Source of the DNA: Planctomyces sp.
GTDB lineage: Bacteria > Planctomycetota > Planctomycetia > Planctomycetales > Planctomycetaceae
NCBI GenBank assembly: GCA_027483405.1
Contig: JAIXUU010000311.1
Location: 1-32,587, forward strand
Reading direction: 5' to 3'
Length of the DNA: 32,587 nucleotides
Made by a program: the position numbers and the translations under genes. The stretch's first letter is position 1. Every line of letters starts with the position of its first letter. Below are positions 20,727-23,350 of this stretch, piece by piece. A model generated the notes under the pieces. The model saw nothing but the letters and a program-made list of their open reading frames with translations. It was not told the DNA's origin and did not search any database.

Positions 20727-21629
20727 TCACAAGTCATTGATACGAGAATTCCGGCCCCCGCGTGGGATTTGCGATGGCTCCCCGTCGTCTTCTTCATAGC
20801 CAGGGTCTGTTTCGTGTTCTTTGTCAACAGACTGCCGCTCGAATTCCCGGATGAGCAATGTCTGTTCGGCTGGTGAGAGCAGCGGGAGTTGTCCAGATTC
20901 GACGGGGCTAAGTGCCTGGGCGAGTTTCCAGCAAAATTGTGCCAGAACAAATACAATCACGTATTGTGCGATCCAGAATCCCCAGATCACAGTGGGAACC
21001 GCTGCTGGAGGAATCATCTGTGGAAAAAACCGGACAGCCAGCATCGCAATCACGAGGATATTGATGATCTTGGCCATTTTCGCGTAGGCCTCCAGTAGTG
21101 ATTGATCCATTCTGTAGACAGCCACTTTCTGCAGGGCGGCTGTCACACCCAGCCAGAGCAGCATCGCCAGAACCTGCACCACCAGCCACCTTTGGCCAGG
21201 GTCTGGCATCAGCATCAGAATCACACTCAATAGAGGTAACAGGATCGAGGCAAACCGACCGGCCATCTCGAGTTGACTGAGCCGTTCGCGCGTTAGTTGC
21301 CAGGTAACCCAGGCGAGCGGAATCGTGAGCGCAAACAGCACCCAGTTGCAGGCCAATCCCTGAGCACGCAACCGTCGAAATTCCTCCATCACTTTTTCCA
21401 GACGATCATTGATCGACTTCAGCTCAGGAAGATTTTTCGCCTCACTGGCCACTTTCCATTCTCGTTCAATATCGACGATCCCTACCGCCAATTGACGAGC
21501 TTCTCTCTGCAAGTACTGCGAGACATCGAGTCCCACTAGAAGTGCCAGAAACAGTAGGGGCAACAGCAGGATCGAGATTCGCCAGTATTTCCAATAAGGC
21601 TGCATACGAGGTGGCCTTCTGTGCGACAA
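20727..21629 (-). CDS. Multi-pass membrane hypothetical protein
   Basis: 300 aa with several hydrophobic segments (ISILLLPLLFLALLVGLDV, WVLFALTIPLAWVTWQL, FASILLPLLSVILMLMP). Confidence 0.65.
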   Translation of the reverse strand: MSHRRPPRMQPYWKYWRISILLLPLLFLALLVGLDVSQYLQREARQLAVGIVDIEREWKVASEAKNLPELKSINDRLEKVMEEFRRLRAQGLACNWVLFALTIPLAWVTWQLTRERLSQLEMAGRFASILLPLLSVILMLMPDPGQRWLVVQVLAMLLWLGVTAALQKVAVYRMDQSLLEAYAKMAKIINILVIAMLAVRFFPQMIPPAAVPTVIWGFWIAQYVIVFVLAQFCWKLAQALSPVESGQLPLLSPAEQTLLIREFERQSVDKEHETDPGYEEDDGEPSQIPRGGRNSRINDL

Positions 21630-21744
21630 GCAATAGAACGGTACGTTTGCGAGAGATCTCAGCGATGAAATCCGTTCGAAAGGATCTCATAACTCAAGGC
21701 AAAACTCCACCACCCGGCAAGCCTTGACAATGCCGATGTGCATA

Positions 21745-22000
21745 AAACAAAACAGGCAATCCGATCATGGCCGGATTGCCTGTTGTATGTTTGGTTCGAC
21801 GTGGCTTTAAGAGCTGGGGACAGGAGAGCTTTAATCAGCAGGCCTATCCAGGACGACTCGTCATGTTGGAGAGTTGTGTGTCCTCTCGAGCCGGAAGTCT
21901 TTCGCGAGAGGAGCCCCTGAGGAGAGCCGTAGCTCTCCCCAGGTTTGGCCTCACGTTCCCGGATCCGCCGGGCTTCAAGCTGGATTCATTCTAACCAGGC
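21745..22000 (-). ncRNA. Candidate structured RNA ending at the 21751..21784 terminator; 5' end unknown
   Basis: Minus strand: CCTGGGGAGAGC-TACG-GCTCTCCTCAGG (21916..21943, 12 bp with one G-U, cUACGg loop), CCTCTCG/CGAGAGG (21882..21911), CCCGG/CCGGG (21958..21972), then the terminator. No convincing protein-coding ORF. Confidence 0.35.
21751..21784 (-). terminator. Strong intrinsic terminator, minus-strand orientation
   Basis: AACAGGCAATCCG (21751..21763) / CGGATTGCCTGTT (21772..21784), perfect 13-bp stem; on the minus strand it is followed by TTGTTTTATG. Confidence 0.65.
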
Positions 22001-22287: not shown

Positions 22288-22878
22288 TTAGTGGCAAGGT
22301 GTGGCCATAGGAGCGGCACATGTTGGAGCACAAGCGGCTGGAGCAGCACATGTTGGAGCACAGGCGGCTGGGGCAGCGCAGCTTGGGGCCACTGAGCAGC
22401 AAGAGGTCTTGCGGCTGCAGGCCTTGCGGAGCTTGCACTTCATGGCAGCAAACTTTTCCTTGAGGTGGCAGCGCTTCTTGGCGCAAGGATCGCAAGCTGG
22501 AGCACATGTTGGTGCACAGGTGGCTGGAGCACAGGCAACAGGAGCAGCACAGCTAGGAGCACAAGCGGCAGGAGCTGGTGCACAGGCAGCTGGAGCTGCA
22601 CATGTAGGAGCACAAGCGGCTGGAGCTGGAGCACAAGCAACAGGAGCAGCGCAAGTTGGAGCACAGGCTGCAGGAGCAGGTGCACAGGCAACAGGAGCAG
22701 CGCAGCTCGGGGCACAAGCCGCAGGAGCGGCACACGATGGGGCACATGCAGCAGGTGCAGCGCAGGTAGGCTCAGGAGCGCAACCGCAGTCGCTCTTCTT
22801 GAGCCAGTGGAAACCGGCGTCAGCCGAGTTCAAACCGGCGATACACAGCAGCACAGCGGAAATCCATGCAAACTTCAT
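22288..22878 (-). CDS. Secreted Cys-Ala-Pro repeat protein
   Basis: ATG at 22878 preceded by GGAGAGA; signal peptide [21 protein letters not shown]; repeats AAP[AV]ACAP[ST]C and AAP[AV][11 protein letters not shown][ST]C around a basic Cys-rich core [34 protein letters not shown]. Confidence 0.75.
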
Positions 22879-23350
22879 CTCAATCTCTCCTAAACAAATC
22901 CAAGGGAACGTGAGGAACCAGGAGCGAAACAGGACACCTTGTCCCGCCATCTGAACCCCTGGCCCAACCCTGCGTGTCACAACGGACATCACACCCTACT
23001 TTTCGGACTGAAGAGACCTGGAGGTCTACGAAGTTTGCCCAAAATCTGCATGACTCACACTGCTGGCGAGAATGTGAAGAATGCAACGAATTTACTGGCG
23101 GATCACAGGCTGTTTTTGCATTTCACCCTCTGGTCACGTTTTTCCACTCAAGTTGGCTCCGCCAGAACTTTTGGCCCTTGCTCCACGATGCTTCATATTG
23201 TGGGCTGGTATTGACTCAATGAGTTCAGTTGCCTGTGAGTGATTGCCGTAAGTCGTATCTAATGAATGCGATACGCATTTTGGTTCCACTCCACATCGGA
23301 AAACCAGTCAATGCCTGATAAGATGCTCGTCATCAAACAGAGGCCTCACC

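Follow-up and report, generated by a model that had tools for sequence, protein, structure and literature searches.

A conserved structured element in the probable 3′ UTR of planctomycete CAP mRNAs, with predicted pairing to their own 5′ UTRs

A handful of bacterial mRNAs are known to pair their own 5′ and 3′ untranslated regions (UTRs). In the icaR mRNA of Staphylococcus aureus, a 3′ UTR motif covers the Shine-Dalgarno sequence and makes a substrate for RNase III (PMC3868564); not even S. epidermidis has this motif (PMC7821165). In the hbs mRNA of Bacillus subtilis, a 14-nt pairing between the two UTRs shields the 5′ UTR from RNase Y, and it is reported to be unconserved in relatives (PMC7821165). 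Functional bacterial 3′ UTRs are, according to a 2021 review, usually unconserved even between close relatives (PMC7821165). Separate RNAs that act on the transcript of the gene just upstream of them are also known, examples being IcaZ, which acts on icaR in S. epidermidis, and OppZ and CarZ, which act on their own operons (PMC7821165). No RNA-level work on the bacterial group of the present host was found in the literature searched.

Here we describe a candidate for a related arrangement in a 32,587-nt stretch of Planctomyces sp. DNA (the window, to which all coordinates refer unless another contig is named). We propose, with a probability of roughly 0.62, that a conserved, structured 3′ UTR pairs with the 5′ UTR of its own mRNA, that of the CAP gene. 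The predicted pairing resembles that of hbs in joining the two UTRs of one mRNA over a similar length (up to 12-14 nt in CAP, 14 nt in hbs). The 5′ element occupies positions −37 to −26 relative to the start codon and stops about 12 nt before the Shine-Dalgarno sequence (−13 to −6), whereas the icaR motif covers it; the 3′ motif is therefore not of the anti-Shine-Dalgarno subtype, and in the position of its 5′ element the CAP arrangement is closer to hbs than to icaR. It further differs from icaR in that the 3′ motif is set in a covarying fold and that the pair of motifs recurs across the family. The effect of the hbs pairing is protection from RNase Y, whereas the CAP pairing is predicted from the sequence, its two motifs being conserved over 10 genera. 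Like IcaZ, OppZ, and CarZ, the CAP element lies just downstream of a gene and is complementary to the transcript of that gene, but those act as separate RNAs (PMC7821165) while the CAP element is read here as part of a predicted long transcript.

The CAP gene (22288..22878, minus strand), taken from the list of open reading frames, encodes a small secreted, cysteine-rich protein of 196 aa with a signal peptide and Cys-Ala-Pro repeats. The protein matched no Pfam family, and a protein search found homologues in 59 of the 171 genomes of the family. The Shine-Dalgarno sequence AGGAGAGA, read directly in the sequence, lies at 22884..22891 (minus strand). At the other end, an intrinsic terminator hairpin with a T-rich tail (21751..21784, minus strand), four pairs of which show two-sided changes in the related genome G004, marks the probable end of the 3′ UTR. 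This is the sole minus-strand terminator-like site found from the CAP stop codon to the next gene, and none was found between the stop codon and the 3′ element. A hairpin-like GGCGGA...UCCGCC lies right behind the stop codon (22251-22220, minus strand); it is kept in G004 and is without a T-rich tail. Many CAP genes of other genera (L071-L155) end in a similar terminator, AAGGUGGCG...CGCCACCUUUU, located 200-280 nt past the stop codon and unlike that of this genus. The CAP mRNA is predicted from the sequence to begin upstream of 22946, span the CAP gene, and end at the terminator (21751-21784), and the stretch behind the gene is most likely its 3′ UTR. G004 likewise has the CAP gene upstream of the element but another gene downstream of it, indicating that the element goes with CAP. 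Linkage to the gene 3′ of the element in the window (20727-21629, minus strand), which encodes a 300-aa predicted membrane protein without a Pfam match, was considered and rejected: this gene is not beside the element in G004, and its strong homologues are confined to the genus.

A preliminary description of this DNA had named several hairpins at 21745-22000, all of which exist, and had favoured a minus-strand RNA. The main stem, P4 (21916..21943, minus strand), folds as drawn there, with 12 bp and a UACG loop (−24 kcal/mol, z −5.2 against shuffles). Over 21740-22000 the minus strand folds with a z of −5.07 against shuffles and the plus strand with −3.87, and the T tail of the terminator is likewise on the minus strand. 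P4 is flanked by the two strands of a further helix, P3, in which UCCUCUCG (21905..21912, minus strand), variable in sequence among genera, pairs with CGUGAGGC (21948-21955). The core strand GGGAACGUGAGG (21949..21960, minus strand) serves both as the 5′ strand of P3 and as the complement of the 5′ element. Directly 5′ of the core lies hairpin P2, CCCGG-CGGAU-CCGGG (21958..21972, minus strand), which is invariant within the genus and, judged by eye, has other hairpins in its place in other genera. The conserved region reaches upstream to about 22036. The weight that had been placed on an extra-stable UNCG loop was misplaced, since within the genus the P4 loop is UACG in two species, UAAG in a further two, and UUCG in another, and its length differs in other genera; the UNCG cap is thus not the conserved feature.

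An Rfam scan of the window found no family at or above the gathering threshold and a single, meaningless low-threshold match, and no tRNA or tmRNA was found in the window. As 6S RNA is encoded at another place in the same genome, the element is not 6S RNA, and together with the Rfam result this rules out 6S RNA, tmRNA, RNase P, and other known RNAs. The preliminary description had likewise recognised no RNase P, tmRNA, SRP, or 6S signatures, and its proposal of an undescribed structured RNA agrees with both the Rfam result and the covariation described below.

Three close species (G001, G002, and G003) share the element region at 95-98% identity, and the more distant G004 shares about 180 nt of it at 83%. 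R1, a covariance model built on the 110-nt core, gave weak matches in the family. Those outside the genus are mostly chance matches, but those in G005, G029, G094, G122, and G162 lie directly downstream of CAP homologues, and it was these that led to a second model, R2; the same motif is seen by eye in G028. R2, built from nine hand-aligned sequences with N padding, locates the element beside a CAP gene in 34 of the 171 family genomes (33 others and its own), representing 10 genera. The family-wide core corresponds to 21899..21962 (minus strand), which R2 scores at 60.5 bits (E 5e-11), the window sequence being in the model's seed. In most of these genomes a separate protein search places the CAP gene on the same strand, 60-350 nt upstream of the element; in G094, G117, and G122 it was found by a separate ORF search, and in G111 and G166 the R2 matches are at contig starts with the CAP C-terminus just upstream. 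Weaker R2 matches beyond the family (G379, G239, G237, G042, and G326) are not downstream of CAP-like genes, and a wider class was rejected for this reason. The host genome has a second CAP-like gene (G000:C292:12768-13076, L162), with no R2 match in its locus. In G065 (L137/L164), G145 (L146/L167), and G127 (L143/L169), CAP 3′ UTRs without an R2 match contain AACGUGAGG, differently arranged and in some loci with a local CUCAC behind it; this is possibly a divergent version of the same element. Other possible 5′-3′ UTR matches seen by eye in these three genomes are no better than shuffles.

Covariation supports the fold. Within the genus, the main stem already contains two changes, one from U-A to C-G and one from G-U to G-C. 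In the R2 alignment of 28 distinct sequences, 91.6% of cells are paired and 58 cells are two-sided, compared to 16.0 in shuffles, and the whole-structure covariation score is 0.351 against 0.176 in shuffles, with a slide of the register destroying the signal; this alignment was fitted to R2, which favours the structure, and a smaller hand-made alignment gives the same picture. P4 is the source of most of the signal: 98% of its cells are paired, and two-sided changes occur in 10 of its 11 pairs, such compensatory changes being what the preliminary description had looked to relatives for. The main stem is therefore strongly supported by covariation. P3 is weaker (82% paired), with a nearly invariant 5′ strand, CGUGAG, and a variable 3′ strand. 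The 3′ UTR appears to fold into a hairpin, the strand GGGAACGUGAGG, and the stem P4 closed by helix P3, where covariation establishes P4 and argues less strongly for P3.

The preliminary description had missed the complementarity of this strand to the CAP leader. GGGAACGUGAGG, itself almost invariant, is the exact complement of CCUCACGUUCCC (22904..22915, minus strand), the 5′ element, such that the CAP gene stands between two complementary segments. The 5′ element is preceded by a hairpin, CGGGACAAGGUGUCCUG (22930..22946, minus strand), of 7 bp with a 3-nt loop, and a hairpin of these dimensions occupies the same position in many CAP leaders. Across 18 sequences 96% of its cells are paired and four pairs show two-sided changes, and this covariation supports transcription of the 5′ region. 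Further upstream is a conserved box, CCGAAA...UAGG...GUGA.GC (about 22950-23020, minus strand), found in the same place at other CAP genes, including loci without the 3′ element. The box is possibly a promoter or a regulator site.

The two elements occur together. All 31 of the element-bearing CAP loci tested have CUCACG at −36 to −43, and none of the 21 CAP loci that lack a strong element has it there; 0.005 occurrences per tested window would be expected as background (Fisher 5e-15, a value that ignores relatedness). CUCACG is likewise present in G111 and G136, whose gene is divided between contigs, giving 33 of 33 loci with an assembled 5′ end; the core of G166 reads UGUGAG, and no CAP 5′ end was found in the assembly of this genome. 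Mapped on an rpoB tree built from 26 genomes, the element requires five to six changes, and the 5′ element changes jointly with it except in G163, which keeps a weak 3′ element (E 0.007) without the 5′ element. Genus g73 includes both states, elements present and elements absent. Supported branches yield three to four independent pairs, which agree in nearly all pairings and are too few for significance. The co-occurrence is clear, with moderate statistical weight once corrected for the tree.

Over 33 genomes, 8-12 of the 12 positions of the predicted 5′-3′ helix can pair. The six central pairs are invariant and so contribute no covariation. Pairing of the flanks is commoner within genomes than between lineages (p=0.009 by shuffles, one row per lineage), one column showing C-G, U-A, A-U, and G-U and another a change from C-G to G-C, a modest covariation of the flanks. 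Several lineages have flank mismatches, and in genus g71 just 6-7 central pairs are left; there the 5′ element may pair locally. Few single genomes have a complementarity that stands out from shuffles of the whole region. When the 5′ and 3′ parts were folded together, the long-range helix was predicted in six of the eight genomes tested.

The preliminary description had left the choice between a small RNA and a 3′ UTR of CAP. The fixed linkage to CAP, and not to the downstream gene, speaks for the 3′ UTR and makes a free-standing small RNA less likely. A small RNA made separately or by processing from the CAP 3′ region could nevertheless act in trans on the CAP 5′ UTR, as do the staphylococcal and operon-derived RNAs introduced above: the element ends in a strong terminator of its own, and its core strand, as a seed would be, is complementary to the CAP 5′ UTR. 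Set against this, the element begins just 60-70 nt past the CAP stop codon in many genera, leaving little room for a promoter, and the CAP mRNA would have no other terminator-like site ahead of it. A scan for sigma-70-type promoters found none in the window region, although planctomycete promoters may differ. Trans targets in the host genome were also considered and rejected, as none of the other exact copies of CCTCACGTTCC, the target of 11 nt, resembles a 5′ UTR site; three of these copies lie in long ORFs and one at a contig edge. A wider regulon is thus not indicated, and the result fits action of the element on its own mRNA. Overall, we regard a small RNA acting in trans as unlikely.

The invariance of the central six pairs exceeds what pairing alone requires, and the flank complementarity in genus g71 is poor. 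Both speak for a reading in which the 3′ element only stabilises or processes the CAP 3′ UTR and the 5′ match has a role of its own, for example as a protein-binding or promoter site; inverted DNA-binding sites could also yield matching sequences. Such separate roles are quite improbable given that both elements are present or absent together, also within genus g73, and that their flanks change together beyond expectation. Chance hairpins are excluded by conservation and covariation over 10 genera beside CAP. A mobile repeat might be suspected from a second, partial copy in G002, whose contig C32 ends in 72 nt of the element joined to alaS (L027:6155-6226); this copy is identical to G002's own locus and stands at a contig end, so it looks like an assembly chimera. 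We consider chance or a mobile repeat extremely improbable.

Under the proposed 5′-3′ pairing, the long-range helix would join both ends of the CAP mRNA just upstream of the ribosome-binding site, leaving the Shine-Dalgarno sequence uncovered. The helix would most likely protect the 5′ UTR from nuclease or gate ribosome loading, and CAP output would then need a complete transcript. Protection is a tentative proposal for the effect of the pairing, and repression a rather doubtful one. As the long-range helix competes with P3, the element could act as a switch. We see an even chance that the CAP mRNA amounts to a closed-loop mRNA in bacteria, one documented by comparison among genomes.

Relative to the pairings described to date, what is new in CAP is the covarying 3′ domain, the position of the pairing upstream of the Shine-Dalgarno sequence, and conservation across the family, the last in contrast to the usual lack of conservation of functional bacterial 3′ UTRs. 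Together these features would make the CAP element a distinct variant of 5′-3′ UTR pairing. If the proposal is true, the occurrence of the element in 10 genera, gained and lost with its 5′ partner, would offer natural variants in which communication between the ends of an mRNA could be tested.
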